From positions 1 through 29,472 of the IMG/VR virus record IMGVR_UViG_3300030107_005493: a DNA stretch of 29,472 bases. One strand, written 5' to 3'. Positions 13,762-29,472 of this stretch are shown piece by piece. The translations under genes and the position numbers were made by a program. Positions within the stretch are counted from its first letter, which is position 1. Each line of letters begins with the position of its first letter. Source of the DNA: a virus. Below the pieces are notes generated by a model that was not told the origin of the DNA, ran no database searches, and worked only from the letters and a program-made list of their open reading frames with translations.

Positions 13762-13770
13762 TATATTTAT
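13762..13770 (+). promoter_or_regulatory. TATATTTAT element in the 95-base gap before the next virion gene
   Basis: The gap 13740-13834 is AT-rich and is the longest since the leader. It holds TATATTTAT at 13762-13770, the same nonamer as at 115-123 and 16676-16684. The reverse strand reads CTATAAATATAC, which contains the T4 late core TATAAATA, but no minus-strand gene follows. AAGGAG at 13821-13826 is the ribosome binding site of the next gene. Promoter function is inferred from recurrence and position only. Confidence 0.3.
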
Positions 13771-13834
13771 AGATGAGAAAAGTTTTAATCTAATATACCC
13801 AAAAAATCTACATATATTGTAAGGAGAATAAATT

Positions 13835-16675: not shown

Positions 16676-16684
16676 TATATTTAT
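16676..16684 (+). promoter_or_regulatory. Candidate promoter/regulatory element before the envelope cassette
   Basis: The 52-base gap 16665-16716 contains AACAAGGTTATATTTAT (16668-16684). The gap at 25564-25592 contains the same 17 bases with one change (AACAAGGTTATACTTAT). Both gaps separate functional blocks. The core TATATTTAT is also found at 115-123 and 13762-13770. I infer a phage-specific promoter or regulator site. AGGAG at 16706-16710 is the separate ribosome binding site of the next gene. Confidence 0.35.
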
Positions 16685-16716
16685 TATAGTAATTTAACGC
16701 TTAACAGGAGAAACAG

Positions 16717-18018
16717 ATGTTAAAGAACTTTTTTATGGGAATATTAATAACCTCATCTTTGTTTGCCCAAAACTTTGTATCAAACTTTTTTAAATACTCA
16801 ACTGCTTATGGTAGTTTCAGTTTAAACGCACCACGACATCAAGACGATAGATTTGCAATTGTTGGTGGATTGAGCACTGGTGATTTGATGGTAGATAGAA
16901 CAGAGAGAGATTTAAAACCTGATTTCCAAACATCCTTTGGATTAAGAAAGATTGGTAGATTTCAATATGAACCAAAAAGAGGTGTAAAGTCTGCTGGTAA
17001 AGGTGGAACTTGGTACGATGGTTCAGAACAAAATGCTAATGAAAGTGCTACATTCGGACCTGTTAAGGGTTGGGAATATTTAATAAAACATTCTCAAGGT
17101 CGTCAATGGGGAAATGATTATGTTAATCAAGAATATTGGTTAAGATACATTGGTGATTTCTTAATGGCTAAGGTTGGTTGGACAGAGTTAGGATTAGAAG
17201 AAATCAACTATGGTCAAGGTGATTTAAGAGTACACCTTACACCAGATGTATTACAAAATAAATTTCATGTTTCTCTTGGATTTAAACACAGACAACATCC
17301 TGTGTATGGGTTTGATGCCATGGTATTGGACACCACTTGGTACAGAGGTCAATGGTGGGCATTTGCTGAAGACGCATTTGGTATTGATGATAATATGTGG
17401 TATGATGAATCTATGTTAGAGGGGTATGATGAAGATGGTAATCCGATTTGGAAACATGATGAGTTGTTAGAACTTATAGATGGTGAATGGGTAAAGGTTG
17501 AAGGAGATGGTCCTTTTTGGAATGGTCGTGGGGAATATTGGGGTCACGATTGGTTATGGAGAGATGCCAATGGTCGTATATTTGCTTATACGGATAGAGA
17601 ATACTTTATATACCACTTCCCACGAATGTTAGAAACTTACATTGATGGAGTAAAAAAGAATTTAGGATATCAAAGTGAAACATCACTTGTGATAGGAATG
17701 GACTTTTACCACTATGCTGATAATTGGTGGTTACACGCTTGGGGTAATTGGTTACCTGTTCATTTTGGTCACACCAAACATTCTTATCAGAATGCTTCAC
17801 TATACAAAAAACATTTAGAAGAAGGATATGAACCATATGACTTTGAATATGTCGAGAGTGGTTGGGCAGATTGGAATGATTATGATTTAGGTGCTTTATT
17901 CGGAGTAAAACTCAAAGATAATCTTGGAGTGTTTGCTGAGGGAAGATATCTGTATTATTGGGAGAGACCAGCATACGATATCAAGCTAGGAGTTAATTAT
18001 CAATTTATGGGATTTTAA
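16717..18018 (+). CDS. Phage-encoded outer-membrane beta-barrel-like protein
   Basis: 433 residues with an N-terminal signal peptide (MLKNFFMGILITSSLFAQ, probable cleavage after A17 or Q18). The mature part has alternating aromatic/hydrophobic strands with tight turns, very high Trp and Tyr content, and an acidic Trp-rich insert at about 210-290. It ends in strands GVFAEGRYLYYWE and YDIKLGVNYQFMGF; the final Phe and alternating pattern match the C-terminal insertion signal of outer-membrane barrels recognised by BamA. That makes it an envelope protein of the infected host rather than a virion part, although a virion role is not excluded. The lipoprotein gene follows after one base. Known roles of phage-made outer-membrane proteins include superinfection exclusion and receptor masking, for example the porin encoded by phage PA-2; the role here is inferred. 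Confidence 0.65.
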   Translation: MLKNFFMGILITSSLFAQNFVSNFFKYSTAYGSFSLNAPRHQDDRFAIVGGLSTGDLMVDRTERDLKPDFQTSFGLRKIGRFQYEPKRGVKSAGKGGTWYDGSEQNANESATFGPVKGWEYLIKHSQGRQWGNDYVNQEYWLRYIGDFLMAKVGWTELGLEEINYGQGDLRVHLTPDVLQNKFHVSLGFKHRQHPVYGFDAMVLDTTWYRGQWWAFAEDAFGIDDNMWYDESMLEGYDEDGNPIWKHDELLELIDGEWVKVEGDGPFWNGRGEYWGHDWLWRDANGRIFAYTDREYFIYHFPRMLETYIDGVKKNLGYQSETSLVIGMDFYHYADNWWLHAWGNWLPVHFGHTKHSYQNASLYKKHLEEGYEPYDFEYVESGWADWNDYDLGALFGVKLKDNLGVFAEGRYLYYWERPAYDIKLGVNYQFMGF

Positions 18019-18019
18019 A

Positions 18020-18619
18020 ATGAGACACGAGGAAATATACAACAATATAAGAACGACTCTCGGTATAGTATTATTAGCCGTAATGTTCACCACATCAAGT
18101 TGTGAGGACACGAGAGTAGAAGAAACAAAAGAACCGATGATGCAGTTATGGGTGAATGGAGACCCAATAGATCCGTTTACCTATTATGGTCAGATAAACA
18201 CCTATGGTGAAATATCAGTTGGTGAAGATGGTAAAATTCAGAAACTTCTCGTGATGCACTTTCAAAGGGAAGTCGGTAGGGTATTACCTGAATTAGAACA
18301 TTATGCGGCTATTTGGGTTGATAAGGATGGTGAGGATAATAGTGATTTAATAGATCCAGGTTTATACTTGAACTACGGGCCAACAGACACATTGGCACAT
18401 ACAAGAGAACAGACAATGGATATGGAAATCATTGGTAGTTTTGATTACACAGATTTCGCACAATCAGAGATATATGTGAATGAGGATAACAAAGTTTCAG
18501 GTATGGCTAATGGTAAATTTTGGAATCCATATAGAGAGGAAGAGCAGTTAGGATTATTGGTTTTCGAAAACATAGAGATTGGAACAGATTCAGATGCAAC
18601 ATTTTATACAGGTGAATAA
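18020..18619 (+). CDS. Probable phage-encoded lipoprotein
   Basis: 199 residues. A basic N-terminus is followed by a hydrophobic stretch (TLGIVLLAVMFTTSSC) with a lipobox-like T-S-S-C; C28 would be lipidated. The residues after it (EDTRVEETKEP) are acidic, which recalls the lipoprotein export signals of Bacteroidota that send lipoproteins to the cell surface. The mature domain is acidic and beta-rich, with no named motif. The lipobox lacks Leu at -3, so the call is good but not certain. It starts one base after the barrel gene and precedes the MshEN-type gene by three bases. Phage lipoproteins such as T5 Llp block receptors against superinfection; with the barrel gene next door, a similar role is plausible. 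Confidence 0.6.
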   Translation: MRHEEIYNNIRTTLGIVLLAVMFTTSSCEDTRVEETKEPMMQLWVNGDPIDPFTYYGQINTYGEISVGEDGKIQKLLVMHFQREVGRVLPELEHYAAIWVDKDGEDNSDLIDPGLYLNYGPTDTLAHTREQTMDMEIIGSFDYTDFAQSEIYVNEDNKVSGMANGKFWNPYREEEQLGLLVFENIEIGTDSDATFYTGE

Positions 18620-18622
18620 TAT

Positions 18623-19309
18623 ATGAGTGATGGAGTCAGATTAGGTCAGTTGTTATGTGATGCAGATGTTATCACAAAACGACAACTAAGTAAAGCCTTA
18701 CAAGAACAAGTCAAAGGTAAAAAGGGAACCATTGGTGAAATCCTTGTAAACATGGGTGTTTGCTCCTTTGAAGACATTACTGAGGCCATGATGAATCACT
18801 CTTCGGACACTCAAAAACACGAAGAAAAACACGAAGAGATTCATAAAGAACCTATACCAAAACCAGTAGTTAAACCAGAACCCGTTGTGGTTGAACCTAC
18901 TCCACAGCCTGTAGTAGAAGAACCAAAAGTAGAAGAACCAATAGAACTTTCTGAAGATAAAGTTATGGGTACAAAGTTTACAATGTCTATTCAGACCATT
19001 ATTGCACTTGTTAGTGTAATAGCGGCAGGTGTTGGTGGTTATTATATGTTGTTAGCAGAAATAGAGGAAGCAAAAAACTTACCAGAACCACCATCTATTG
19101 AATCTATATTTGGTGATGAGTATCCATCCAAACCTGATGGACATAACTGGCCTCGTTCATACGAACAATACAAAACACAAGTTGGTGGATTACAAGAAGA
19201 TATGGATAATGTATTTGAAATAATTGATGAGTATGAAGAGAAAATTGAAGATTTAGAAAAACTCGTGGCTAACCTAAGAGTAGAGGTTGCGAAGAAAAAG
19301 GACAAGTAG
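18623..19309 (+). CDS. Membrane protein with N-terminal MshEN (T2SSE-N, c-di-GMP-type) domain, Pro-rich linker and coiled coil
   Basis: 228 residues. Residues 6-29 (RLGQLLCDADVITKRQLSKA then LQEQ) match the 24-residue RLG...Q motif of MshEN domains, which bind cyclic di-GMP in MshE-type ATPases. Residues 36-59 form a second 24-residue copy in which the R and Q positions are T36 and H59; two tandem motifs is the normal arrangement. Residues 75-110 are rich in Pro, Val and Glu (linker). One membrane helix follows (about 123-145), then an acidic segment and a coiled coil (about 185-225). The topology is likely MshEN domain inside, coiled coil in the periplasm. No Walker motifs exist, so it is not a secretion ATPase. 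It lies between the lipoprotein and thioredoxin-fold genes. It may couple a cytoplasmic signal to the envelope; ligand binding is uncertain because copy two is degenerate. Confidence 0.7.
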   Translation: MSDGVRLGQLLCDADVITKRQLSKALQEQVKGKKGTIGEILVNMGVCSFEDITEAMMNHSSDTQKHEEKHEEIHKEPIPKPVVKPEPVVVEPTPQPVVEEPKVEEPIELSEDKVMGTKFTMSIQTIIALVSVIAAGVGGYYMLLAEIEEAKNLPEPPSIESIFGDEYPSKPDGHNWPRSYEQYKTQVGGLQEDMDNVFEIIDEYEEKIEDLEKLVANLRVEVAKKKDK

Positions 19310-19319
19310 GAGTTACATT

Positions 19320-19697
19320 ATGCGAAATTTGTTAGGATTGATATTACTTTTCTCCATGACATTTGGTCAAGGTGTTAACGATAAAAATTTCAAAGAAAAA
19401 ATAAATGGTGGGGTTGTTGTTGTGGTATTTACATCAGAATGGCAAGAAGCCGATTTTGATGAAAAACTCATCAAAGGTGTAAAAGGATACCAAGATTGTG
19501 AGATTATAAGAGTTAAAAGTGAAGATGCCCCAAAGGTTGTTAAGAAGTTACGATTTAGGAATTATCCATCATTAGCTCTTTTCTACGATGGTTCTAAAAA
19601 GGAAACATGGAAAGCCGATATGGATGGGGAACTCGATTTAAGTAATAAAGAAATCAAGTCTGCAATAGATGATATATTAGCTGAAGATGTATTTTAA
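19320..19697 (+). CDS. Exported thioredoxin-fold protein lacking the CxxC active site
   Basis: 125 residues from the ATG at 19320, chosen because AGGAG (19308-19312) is seven bases upstream and the protein then begins with a clean signal peptide (MRNLLGLILLFSMTFGQ). A longer in-frame start at 19287 would put a Lys/Arg-rich extension before the signal and is less likely. The mature part follows a thioredoxin fold: strand VVVVVF (32-37), then TSEWQEADF where W-C-G-P-C would be, RFRNYPSLALFYDG with the cis-Pro (P83), and a closing helix. Both active-site cysteines are replaced (Gln and Asp), so it cannot act as a disulfide oxidoreductase; a binding or chaperone role in the periplasm is more likely. 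Its start overlaps the region just after the MshEN gene's stop. Confidence 0.7.
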   Translation: MRNLLGLILLFSMTFGQGVNDKNFKEKINGGVVVVVFTSEWQEADFDEKLIKGVKGYQDCEIIRVKSEDAPKVVKKLRFRNYPSLALFYDGSKKETWKADMDGELDLSNKEIKSAIDDILAEDVF

Positions 19698-19700
19698 TGT

Positions 19701-20345
19701 ATGGATATTGCAACTTTATCGGGTCATTTAGCCTTTGGGTTAATAGCATTTTCTTTTTTAGTAAAGGATATTTTATACCTTAGAATCCTATCCATTTTCG
19801 CAAGTTTATTTTCAGTATTTTATAATTACATTATTCCAGTTGAACCGATGTGGTTACCAATAGGTTGGAACATTATTTTCGTGCTAGTAAATATCTATCA
19901 TATAGCAGTTATCATATATGAAAAAAGACCTGTTAATATGAAATCGAAAGACAAAGAACTATATGAAACATTATTCAAGGAGTTAAGTCCAGTAGAGTAT
20001 TTGAAGATAAGTAAGGTAGCCGAATGGAAAACATATAAGAAAAACGAATCACTTATAATACAAGGTATGCCAGTTGATGATTTAATTTTGATTTACAATG
20101 GAACTGTTAATGTTATTGTGGATGGTGAAGGGGTGGCACAATTAAAAGATGGAGAGTTTGTTGGTGAGATGTCTTTTCTTACAGATAAACCAGCAACGGC
20201 CACTTGTAAAGTTGAACACGATACTGAATGTTTAGTTTGGAAGCAACCTGAATTTAAAGAATTATTAAAAAGAAACCCATCATTGTATTACACAATTCAG
20301 TCATTATTGAGTGGTCAATTGGTAGGTTATAGTACAAAAAAATGA
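19701..20345 (+). CDS. Popeye-type (POPDC-like) membrane protein with cyclic-nucleotide-binding fold
   Basis: 214 residues. Three membrane helices lie at about 8-24, 26-46 and 53-75; the third (WLPIGWNIIFVLVNIYHIAV) ends in EKRPV, the arrangement of bacterial Popeye-domain proteins. Residues of about 88-205 form a cyclic-nucleotide-binding beta roll. Its phosphate-binding cassette reads GEFVGEMSFLTDKPATATC (151-169). The Arg that binds the phosphate in CAP and PKA is Ala here (A165), as in Popeye proteins, which bind cAMP by a divergent pocket. No obvious Shine-Dalgarno precedes the ATG; the gene starts three bases after the previous stop and may depend on coupling. It could sense host cAMP at the inner membrane. 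Ligand binding is inferred from the fold. Confidence 0.75.
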   Translation: MDIATLSGHLAFGLIAFSFLVKDILYLRILSIFASLFSVFYNYIIPVEPMWLPIGWNIIFVLVNIYHIAVIIYEKRPVNMKSKDKELYETLFKELSPVEYLKISKVAEWKTYKKNESLIIQGMPVDDLILIYNGTVNVIVDGEGVAQLKDGEFVGEMSFLTDKPATATCKVEHDTECLVWKQPEFKELLKRNPSLYYTIQSLLSGQLVGYSTKK

Positions 20346-20351
20346 ATAACA

Positions 20352-20360
20352 GATATTTAT
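20352..20360 (+). promoter_or_regulatory. GATATTTAT element before the lysis-type genes
   Basis: The 33-base gap 20346-20378 carries GATATTTAT at 20352-20360, eight of nine bases the same as the TATATTTAT element in other gaps. It is weaker than the copies at 115, 13762 and 16676, and in AT-rich DNA such a match could be chance. Confidence 0.2.
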
Positions 20361-20378
20361 ATTTGATGGATAAAAGAT

Positions 20379-20537
20379 ATGCCAAATAAATCAGCTAAGT
20401 TACGAAAACAACAAAGACTTAGAAAAAACAAAGAGCTGAAACAAAAAGGTAGAACAGCTAACCAGTACAAAAAATGGTTAAAAAAACAAGGAGATAATCA
20501 TGGGGTTACTAAGTACAATAGCCAAAGGCGCAGGTAG
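20379..20537 (+). CDS. Small strongly basic protein (52 residues)
   Basis: ATG at 20379 opens a 52-codon frame beginning MPNKSAKLRKQQRLRKNKEL, followed by KQKGRTANQYKKWLKKQGDN. About 45% of the first 40 residues are Lys or Arg, and the pattern of basic helices with a GRT turn reminds me of small basic proteins seen next to lysis genes in other marine T4-like phages. The last 13 codons overlap the start of the holin-like gene (20500) in another frame and look less gene-like. The ribosome binding site is weak (GGAT at 20368-20371). A DNA- or RNA-binding role would fit the composition, but there is no direct evidence. Confidence 0.55.
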   Translation: MPNKSAKLRKQQRLRKNKELKQKGRTANQYKKWLKKQGDNHGVTKYNSQRRR

Positions 20538-20913
20538 TTTATTAGGTGGAACTGCAATTAAAGACATCGGAAATATAGTAGATGACCTACATACTTCAGG
20601 TGAAGAGAAGGCAGAAGCTAAACAAAAGATTACACAGATACTAGCAGAGGCAGAACAAGCAGCACAAGCTCAAGTATCAGCCCGTTGGGAAGCTGATTTA
20701 AAACATGGTAGTTGGTTAAGTAAAAATATAAGACCGATTACATTAATATTTTTAACAGGTGTATTCGTAATACTAAGTGTATTTGATGGTAATATGGGTG
20801 AATTTACTATTGGTGAAGCCTATGTACCTGTTTATCAAACATTATTGATGACCGTATACGCAGCGTACTTCGCTGGTCGGTCTATCGAAAAGGTAAAAAA
20901 GGTGACAAAATAA
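20500..20913 (+). CDS. Holin, 3TM (GTA-type) family
   Basis: 137 residues. The N-terminus is an amphipathic Gly-rich helix (LLSTIAKGAGSLLGGTAIKD) followed by a charged helix (SGEEKAEAKQKITQILAEAE, about 34-53). After KHGSWLSKNIRP come two hydrophobic helices (TLIFLTGVFVILSVF at about 80-94 and VPVYQTLLMTVYAAYFAGRS at about 109-128) and a basic tail. This is the layout of the 3TM holin family linked to gene transfer agent release: amphipathic helix, R-P-x-T before the first membrane span, and Y-F-x-G-R-S near the end. It would form inner-membrane lesions that start lysis. AAGGAG at 20489-20494 is a good ribosome binding site. No endolysin gene is visible in the window. Confidence 0.72.
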   Translation: MGLLSTIAKGAGSLLGGTAIKDIGNIVDDLHTSGEEKAEAKQKITQILAEAEQAAQAQVSARWEADLKHGSWLSKNIRPITLIFLTGVFVILSVFDGNMGEFTIGEAYVPVYQTLLMTVYAAYFAGRSIEKVKKVTK

Positions 20914-21063: not shown

Positions 21064-21387
21064 ATGCCAGTTGAAAAAAAGGATGTGAAAGTAGATGATT
21101 ACCATGTCCAAGATCAAAAACATGCTATAAATCAACAATTAGTTGATATTATAAAATTTAGACAGAACAAAAAGTGGTATATCAGTATATCTGTAGTAGC
21201 ACTTTTCTCTACTATCCTTGCACTTATGATTTACTTTATGAGTAACGGAGTTGATGTACAGAGTGGATGGAAAGAAATCTTACTACTGATGTTAGGTGGA
21301 TTTGTGGGTTCGTTTGCCAAGGTCATTGATTTTTGGTTCAACAACGCTGAAGATGATGTTAAACTTTTAGAACATGCGGATGACTAA
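21064..21387 (+). CDS. Two-helix membrane protein, possible second holin or antiholin
   Basis: 107 residues. A charged N-terminus (about 1-37) is followed by a membrane helix (YISISVVALFSTILALMIYF at about 39-58), a short loop (MSNGVDVQSGWKE) and a second helix (ILLLMLGGFVGSFAKVIDFW at about 72-91), then an acidic tail. Such short two-helix proteins next to a holin often act as a second holin or antiholin. AGGAG at 21052-21056 precedes the ATG. No enzymatic motif is seen. Other small membrane roles remain possible. Confidence 0.6.
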   Translation: MPVEKKDVKVDDYHVQDQKHAINQQLVDIIKFRQNKKWYISISVVALFSTILALMIYFMSNGVDVQSGWKEILLLMLGGFVGSFAKVIDFWFNNAEDDVKLLEHADD

Positions 21388-27996: not shown

Positions 27997-28186
27997 TGAT
28001 GATGATTGGAAGATTCACATTAGTAGTGAATCCTTAAAAGAAAAAATACAAGAAAAGTTTAATCTTAAAAAGACAGATACTATTTACTATGAAAATGGTA
28101 CTTTTCAAGAGGAAACTGCTTGGGACTTAGTAATTCCCAATAAAATAATTAACAAAGTAAAAAAATACATCAAGGATAATAGTTGA
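27959..28186 (+). CDS. Small charged protein overlapping primase
   Basis: 75 residues starting inside the primase gene (38-base overlap); no later in-frame ATG exists before the middle of the protein. It is rich in Lys, Asp and Glu, with WKFNDDDWKIHISSESLKEK (about 10-29) and a closing VIPNKIINKVKKYIKDN helix. It has no known domain. Its TGA stop overlaps the TTG start of the next gene. Position between primase and Mre11-Rad50 suggests a DNA-metabolism accessory protein, function unknown. Confidence 0.6.
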   Translation: MEKRKRPSVWKFNDDDWKIHISSESLKEKIQEKFNLKKTDTIYYENGTFQEETAWDLVIPNKIINKVKKYIKDNS

Positions 28187-29472
28187 TAAAAAATGTTGTA
28201 AAAGTTCCTTTTCGAAAACTTAAACACATACACCACATATCGGATATACAAATCCGAAACCTTAAACGACACAAGGAATACGAAGAAGTATTCAATCGTT
28301 TATACGAAAAGGTCAAAGAAAACAAAGACAATGCTGTTGCCTATATAGGTGGTGATATAGCACATTCCAAAACTGAGATGTCACCTGAATTGGTTGACCA
28401 ACTCTCAAGGTTGTTTAAGAATCTATCCGACATAGTTCCAACGATAATTATTGCTGGTAACCACGATTGTAATCTAAACAATCGTTCTCGTATGGATGTT
28501 CTCACACCAATAGTTGAGAATCTTAATCATCCAAACTTACATTATGCCAAAGATTCAGGCATCTATAAATGTGCTGATGTTTCATTTGTAGTGTGGGATT
28601 GTTGGGATACAGAAGATAACTTTATCACAGCAGACCAAGTAGAAGGTGATACCAAGATTGTATTGTTTCATGGAACCGTAGATAAATGTGAAACCGATTT
28701 AGGTTTTAATCTACCATCAGATGTAAAGATTACCAAGTTTGATGGATACGATATGGGATTGTTGGGTGATATTCATAAAAGACAACATCTTAACAAAGAA
28801 GAAACAATATCCTATTGTGGTTCGTTGGTTCAACAGAATCACGGAGAAGGATTAGACCACGGCTATTTACTATGGGATGTTCCTAAGAGAAAATCCACAT
28901 ATATTCCAATCCACAATGATTATGGATATTATACATTAGATATTGATAATGGAGTTGTTCCCGATGTAGATGATATGCCAAAAAAGGCCAGAGTTAGAGT
29001 AAGGGTGTCTAATACCGACTCTGTTCAATTAAAGAAGGCCTTGAGTGTAATACAGACCAAATATGGTATAAAAGAAATAGCTGTTAATCGTACAGACAGA
29101 TTGACAGAAAGAGTCCGTGATGGACAAGTTGTTGATGTCGGAGACATTACTAATCCTGAGTATCAGTATGAGTTGATAGAAGATTACTTAGGTAGAAATC
29201 ATATCGTGGATGAAAAAACATTACTAAAAATAAAAGATATAAATGATGAGTTAAACTCAGACTTACCCGATGAAGATATAAATAGAAATGTTTTTTGGAA
29301 AATAAAAAGATTTGAATGGTCGAATATGTTTAGTTATGGTGAAGATAATGTTATAGACTTCACTAAACTCAATGGGATTATTGGAATGTTCGCACCAAAC
29401 GCAAGTGGAAAATCAGCATTATTAGATTCCCTTTCATTCTGTTTATTTGATACATCGGCAAGAGCATTTAAA
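28183..29472 (+). CDS. Mre11-Rad50 (SbcD-SbcC, gp47-gp46) fusion protein, truncated at the window end
   Basis: One open frame of 430 codons runs from TTG 28183 to the window edge. An in-frame TAG lies immediately upstream, AAGGA (28172-28176) is six bases before the TTG, and the next in-frame ATG would cut off the first nuclease motif, so TTG is the start. Residues 1-270 are an Mre11 metallophosphoesterase: HISDIQI (D21, with Gln23 where His is usual), GGDIAH (D58), AGNHD (93-95), LFHGTVD and LLGDIHKRQ. After a linker with acidic helices, residues from about 378 are a Rad50 N-terminus: FEWSNMFSYGEDNVIDF and Walker A APNASGKSALLDSL (about 404-417). T4 encodes gp47 and gp46 separately; here there is no stop, frameshift or start between them. 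The complex resects DNA ends for recombination-dependent replication. The coiled coil, signature motif and Walker B lie beyond the window. Confidence 0.92.
   Translation, partial: MIKNVVKVPFRKLKHIHHISDIQIRNLKRHKEYEEVFNRLYEKVKENKDNAVAYIGGDIAHSKTEMSPELVDQLSRLFKNLSDIVPTIIIAGNHDCNLNNRSRMDVLTPIVENLNHPNLHYAKDSGIYKCADVSFVVWDCWDTEDNFITADQVEGDTKIVLFHGTVDKCETDLGFNLPSDVKITKFDGYDMGLLGDIHKRQHLNKEETISYCGSLVQQNHGEGLDHGYLLWDVPKRKSTYIPIHNDYGYYTLDIDNGVVPDVDDMPKKARVRVRVSNTDSVQLKKALSVIQTKYGIKEIAVNRTDRLTERVRDGQVVDVGDITNPEYQYELIEDYLGRNHIVDEKTLLKIKDINDELNSDLPDEDINRNVFWKIKRFEWSNMFSYGEDNVIDFTKLNGIIGMFAPNASGKSALLDSLSFCLFDTSARAFK

Follow-up and report, generated by a model that had tools for sequence, protein, structure and literature searches.

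Type IV pilus (T4P) extension ATPases such as MshE, PilB and PilF carry a domain, MshEN or GspE N1, which is built from two motifs of 24 residues each, separated by a spacer of 5 residues (Wang et al., PMC5013675), and a contact between the N1 domain of PilB and PilM has been inferred in a review (PMC11656802). Phages act on this motor: the phage proteins Tip and Aqs1 disable PilB, excluding other phages (PMC11656802), and small phage PilB inhibitors more generally are used for such exclusion (PMC11656802, PMC11436027). NfrA-NfrB of E. coli, which is required for phage N4, pairs an outer-membrane protein with an MshEN-bearing inner-membrane protein. Animal POPDC (Popeye) proteins bind cyclic adenosine monophosphate (cAMP) through DSPE and FQVT motifs (PMC6562197). 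Here we describe a set of five genes, A to E, at positions 16717-20345 of the 29,472-nucleotide (nt) IMG/VR record IMGVR_UViG_3300030107_005493, the whole of which is called the window below. The set joins an MshEN-type membrane protein and a Popeye-type membrane protein to three exported proteins. Its composition is new, in that every fold is known and no counterpart was found for the combination. We tentatively read it as a late envelope-remodeling module that engages host machinery of the T4P or type II secretion system (T2SS) type, probably to alter the surface or to keep other phages out. It is possible that its function falls within a known kind, such as superinfection exclusion or lysis control.

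Composition of the five-gene set

All five genes lie on the (+) strand, with intergenic gaps of 1, 3, 10 and 3 nt. A first-pass annotation, made from the letters of the window, had listed the same open reading frames (ORFs) with this order and spacing, and had called their products a signal-peptide barrel-like protein ending in Phe, a lipoprotein, an MshEN-type membrane protein, an exported thioredoxin-fold protein that lacks CxxC and a three-helix Popeye-type protein with a cyclic-mononucleotide domain. Profile searches and structure models bear out each of these descriptions, and the MshEN and Popeye assignments both hold against curated models above cut-off.

Protein C (18623..19309, +; 228 aa) has an MshEN/GspE-N1-type domain at residues 6-56 and a single transmembrane (TM) stretch at 119-144, followed by a C-terminal coiled coil. 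It matches the NCBIfam model NF053729 ('c-di-GMP_motif, MshE-related') at 45.9 bits (cut-off 38), and that model is matched at E<=0.01 by 53/53 members of the C family. In the PDB, the family profile finds PilF (7.3e-10), PilB (3.7e-7) and MshE (1.3e-3); every one of its nearest relatives of solved structure is a T4P extension ATPase. By both the curated model and the PDB profile, C shares the 53-residue tandem-motif domain of these proteins, but it has no ATPase, is fused instead to a TM helix and coiled coil, and has a spacer of 6 residues, as opposed to 5 in the definition of Wang et al. Motif I (R-L-G...L...L..Q), which reads RLGQLLCDADVITKRQLSKALQEQ in the window, keeps its Leu/Ile, Gly, Leu and Gln, with Gly10 changed to Asp and with Arg in the window protein where most relatives have Lys. 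Motif II keeps its Gly and hydrophobic residues, and in most of 75 sequences its Arg is replaced by Thr or Ser and its Gln by His, Ser or Asn. Polar substitutions cost MshEN domains at most about fivefold in affinity and hydrophobic ones more than tenfold (Wang et al., PMC5013675); because polar residues thus weigh less on affinity than hydrophobic ones, binding of cyclic di-guanosine monophosphate (c-di-GMP) by C is possible. Set beside NfrA-NfrB, C matches NfrB weakly (0.0054) and lacks the glycosyltransferase domain, and A is not known to be a relative of NfrA.

The exported products A, B and D were characterized mainly through models and profiles. Protein A (16717..18018, +; 433 aa) has a signal-like N-terminus and the C-terminus ...FMGF. 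Its AlphaFold2 model is of moderate confidence (predicted local distance difference test, pLDDT, 70.7) and gives VIA matches to 12-stranded outer-membrane barrels at Z 15-16, best among them EstA (Z 15.9), KdgM (Z 15.6) and NalP (Z 15.2), which suggest that A is an outer-membrane beta-barrel. No match to A was found in Pfam, PHROG, NCBIfam or phage records, nor in a PDB profile search. The exporters BcsC, PgaA and AlgE, its top Foldseek matches, were not used, given their low TM-scores and the preference of VIA for 12-stranded barrels. One related contig (L078:5766-8352) holds a tandem pair of A-type barrel genes, the second of which is 47% identical to A of the window. Protein B (18020..18619, +; 199 aa) is a lipoprotein with the lipobox TSSC at residues 25-28, Cys28 being invariant in 44 aligned members, and is modeled as a beta-sandwich (pLDDT 86.9); its sole fold match above noise is LpqH (VIA Z 8.3), and Foldseek gave no match at E<=0.001. 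Protein D (19320..19697, +; 125 aa) is an exported thioredoxin fold, matched by Pfam Thioredoxin at 1.6e-4, slightly under cut-off, and by PDB thioredoxin domains down to 5.9e-14 with the family profile; CxxC is present in 0/70 distinct members. A role for A-E as parts of the virion was rejected because A, B and D bear export signals.

Protein E (19701..20345, +; 214 aa) combines a three-helix Popeye-type membrane part with a cyclic-nucleotide-binding-type domain (CNBD). Residues 7-105 match PF04831 (POPDC1-3) at 3.7e-14 and 53.5 bits (cut-off 28.1) and include hydrophobic stretches at 29-47 and 54-72, a further one lying at 3-21; PF00027 (cNMP_binding) matches at 5.9e-17 and 61.9 bits (cut-off 27.5), and the PDB matches of this domain are kinases, HCN and CRP. 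The phosphate cassette reads FVGEMSFLT..PATAT. Its ribose-contacting GE is invariant in an 18-member alignment, and at the position where PKA, PKG and PycTIR have their phosphate-binding Arg, every one of 71 distinct pool sequences has Ala except one, which reads SIRSA. E shares the three-helix membrane part and CNBD-like domain with animal POPDC and with Bdellovibrionota Popeye-CNBD proteins; it differs from POPDC in being viral, in adjoining phage envelope or lysis genes and in having neither DSPE nor FQVT, the corresponding stretch being FVGEMSFLTDKPATATC. Full-length bacterial Popeye-CNBD relatives are 37-47% identical to E, and Popeye occurs in 13/291 genomes from the phylum to which the Bacteriovoracaceae match, a metagenome-assembled genome, belongs. 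Because these chromosomal relatives (L338-L347) read GEM or GEI and most have no Arg at the phosphate position, E is a member of a bacterial Popeye-CNBD family with an altered pocket. A strict-pattern scan for relatives of E, sought as a clue to the host, matched only Bacteriovoracaceae and CNBD-only Anaerolineae, and a scan, run without a positive control, of 369 genomes from the phylum of the former did not find barrel A. A literature search on Popeye in phages returned nothing relevant, and we believe E and its relatives to be the first viral Popeye-type proteins.

Conservation, gene order and pilin neighbors

Relatives were sought by scans of viral contigs (IMG/VR), which yielded 99 for E, 135 for A, at least 487 for C and 89 for the prepilin described below. 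All records were treated as possible fragments, and since those used for co-occurrence were picked for having E, A or C and are biased accordingly, we give counts and not p-values. Of 43 long records, 34 carry C, 34 carry D, 33 carry A, 28 carry E and 25 carry B; A, C and D occur jointly in 31. The spacing between C and D is at most 11 nt in every locus that has both, although many of these loci overlap on the same contigs. The order A-B-C-D-E was found again in many other contigs, and the arrangement is therefore not due to chance. The idea of an inseparable five-gene cassette was rejected, as B is variable and E separable in the long records. The conserved core is A-(B)-C-D, with A-C-D fixed. 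The five-gene unit of the first-pass annotation accordingly stands for the A-C-D core and for the recurring order, and related phages do keep the genes together; it fails for B and E. The annotator had known of no described phage system of this composition, and none of the 50,697 phage records searched matches A, B, C, D, E or the pilin. A megablast of window positions 1-25000 for the nearest phages also returned no match.

E is single-copy and less closely bound to the set. In 12 of the 20 records with both D and E, E lies within 900 nt 3' of D, and in the others the two are about 10-28 kb apart; E is found without A-C-D (e.g. G001, G017, G018), and A-C-D without E (e.g. G025, G040, G041). 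Among the genes directly 5' of E in 81 loci, 33 encode an SLT endolysin (at L014:7672-8897 and 32 further loci), 22 are D and 12 are the holin-like gene H, so that E has ties both to lysis genes and to D. The membrane-anchored SLT endolysin gene overlaps E by 4 nt in 21 loci, and a GH108 endolysin lies 3' of E in 6 of the 81. In G007, G010, G022 and G034, E adjoins the SLT gene, and the A-C-D genes of that record lie over 20 kb away. E, which had been taken as a member of the set, is thus beside D in many phages but is not an obligate member, being coupled elsewhere to an endolysin or holin-like gene. In a further record (L003:8972-10645), which has no A-D, the Popeye gene lies 3' of a RimK-type ATP-grasp ligase gene.

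A second recurring neighborhood involves type IV pilins. The run A-(B)-C-D-(E) is often followed by the prepilin-like gene of cluster 40, together with between one and three smaller genes that bear the N_methyl motif, and these prepilin motifs (class III signal) were confirmed for the neighboring pilin-like genes. The cluster-40 gene is present in 24/44 records searched, and 22/80 pilin loci have an A-C-D block upstream, either directly or with no more than B, E or some short genes in between. A prepilin-like operon lies directly 3' of A-B-C-D at L178:2235-4910 and L191:8208-10434, and of A-C-D at L228:8107-10059. In L178 the next gene after the operon encodes a TonB C-terminal protein with a signal (PF03544, 3e-11).

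The borders of the set in the window are marked by a short repeated element. On the coding strand, 5/9 copies of TATTTAT in the window are intergenic (p 2e-7), as are 51/92 across 16 related loci, where intergenic DNA makes up 15% of length (p 6e-19); its reverse is not enriched between genes (5/48 in the related loci). Because of this strand-specific concentration, TATTTAT is probably a promoter element. Intergenic copies of (A)TATTTAT in the window lie at 117-127, 13763-13771, 16676-16690 and 20353-20361. The third of these (TTATATTTATTATAG, 16676..16690, +) stands 5' of gene A as a putative promoter, and the fourth (ATATTTATA, 20353..20361, +) stands directly 3' of E, ahead of the next gene, and likely marks the 3' border of the unit. 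Because one copy precedes A and the next directly follows E, A-E likely form one transcription unit in the window phage, which agrees with the earlier proposal that the genes are made together.

Proposed mode of action and alternatives

From the genes, domains, co-occurrence, order, neighboring pilins, genome position and promoter-like borders, we infer where each protein may reside, how C may dock, what may happen to the pili and how the phage may benefit. A-(B)-C-D would be made late and spread over all envelope layers, with A in the outer membrane, B lipid-anchored, D exported to the periplasm and C in the inner membrane, its MshEN/GspE-N1-type domain cytoplasmic and its coiled coil probably periplasmic; E and type IV prepilins are frequent partners. 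The N1-type domain of C could dock on the host T4P/T2SS assembly platform, at the PilM/GspL socket that normally takes the extension ATPase, and docked C would block or redirect the host pilus or secretion machine. A, B and D, with phage pilins, would alter periplasmic and surface parts. The surface of the infected cell would thereby be changed and further phages excluded; or a pilus-type machine would serve the phage. Host T4P/T2SS-type machinery is proposed as the target because a membrane-anchored N1-type motor-docking domain occurs with exported and outer-membrane partners and adjacent pilins. Tip, Aqs1 and Zip are likewise phage products aimed at the pilus extension ATPase, a target that the C set may share; they are small soluble peptides, whereas A-E form a multi-gene envelope set with its own outer-membrane barrel, often with pilins. 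An extension of this proposal, in which the barrel in the outer membrane, the lipoprotein, a motor-docking domain on a membrane anchor, a scaffold in the periplasm, a Popeye regulator and the phage's own type IV pilins make up a trans-envelope apparatus that takes over the host T4P or secretion platform in infection, appears unlikely to us. The module would offer a lytic phage a route to rebuild the host envelope. The set is absent from the phage records searched, yet its relatives are common in uncultured viral contigs, and it offers small soluble domains suited to clear binding tests.

Several observations weigh against engagement of pilus-type machinery. Pilins are absent from some long A-C-D records (G025, G040) and from the window record itself; in G019 and G023, the nearest relatives of the window, pilins lie about 20-28 kb away, with the cluster-40 gene about 20-24 kb upstream of the set, and the equivalent position would lie beyond the left end of the window record. 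The pilin link is thus not obligatory. No phage pilus ATPase, platform protein or secretin was recognized in passing, no systematic search having been made, and the host is not known to have T4P. The N1-type domain is found in other proteins too, such as NfrB-type glycosyltransferases, and E is lysis-linked as well as D-linked.

That lysis link is the starting point for another explanation, in which E regulates lysis from the inner membrane while C, B and A breach the outer envelope in the manner of spanins. The position of E directly 3' of SLT endolysin or H genes, the occasional GH108 gene after it, the holin-like genes G and H that follow E in the window, the TM stretch and coiled coil of C and the lipoprotein nature of B all fit such a role. 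Usual o-spanins are much smaller than B, however, and neither a cytoplasmic N1-type domain nor a large barrel is a spanin feature; A-B-C-D usually sit among tail and pilin genes rather than lysis genes, and E is 20-30 kb from A-D in several records. We regard lysis control or envelope disruption as somewhat unlikely. The first-pass annotation had favored sensing of second messengers at the inner membrane, with C reading c-di-GMP and E a cyclic nucleotide and the envelope being changed accordingly. Its structural half stands, since both folds are real: motif I of C is largely intact at the residues that matter most, hydrophobic positions are kept in the two motifs alike, polar substitutions cost MshEN domains less affinity than hydrophobic ones (PMC5013675), and E retains the ribose-contacting GE. 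The binding sites are less favorable: C has lost Arg and Gln from motif II, has Asp for Gly in motif I and a spacer of 6 rather than 5, while E has Ala for the phosphate Arg and no DSPE or FQVT. C and E are moreover separable across genomes. We regard second-messenger sensing as unlikely. Because the relatives so often continue with type IV prepilin genes, the MshEN domain points more directly to a pilus or T2SS motor contact than to sensing of the host state.

Two further explanations concern single members of the set. A could be a phage-supplied porin that raises solute or nutrient uptake in infection, with B and D assisting. The porins KdgM and NanC are among the best fold matches of A, and conservation extends over all of A (62 sequences, mean column identity 66%), which is not what a variable surface antigen would show; but many unrelated 12-stranded barrels score equally, and C, E and the pilins would be left without a role, which makes a nutrient module improbable. 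E could also act as a cyclic-mononucleotide sponge or decoy against Pycsar-type defense, a role suggested by the resemblance of its CNBD to PycTIR (PADLOC, 3.5e-13). The phosphate-contacting Arg of PycTIR (R97 of PsPycTIR) is, however, Ala in E, and bacterial chromosomes bear full-length relatives that also lack it, so we give the sponge very little credence.

Genome setting and adjacent genes

Over the stretch that runs from the baseplate genes to the two tail genes preceding A, the window shares gene order and homology with both Microcystis phage Mel-JY01 and Flavobacterium phage immuto, and synteny resumes at the primase. In the interval between, the cultured phage immuto has host-recognition genes (tail fiber and tail spike) where the window phage has A-E and holin-like genes. 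One relative carries gp32 and RecA/UvsX-type genes, consistent with a T4-like myovirus, and the carriers of the set are a clade of uncultured marine T4-like phages.

Downstream of E on the same strand lie F (20379..20537, +), a basic ORF of 52 aa that overlaps the start of G; the holin-like G (20500..20913, +; PHROG 3427 holin, 9.8e-27); and H (21064..21387, +), a two-TM protein called holin-like from synteny and a weak match to PHROG 689 holin (0.0014). Relatives of the F-type ORF (MPNKxAKxRK...) occupy varying positions in the module, at A/B, B/C and A/C junctions (L004, L007, L012, L172, L228). At the right end of the window, a single ORF (28183-29472) combines a phosphoesterase part of SbcD type with the beginning of an SbcC-like ATPase, which suggests a possible fusion of both subunits in the window phage.

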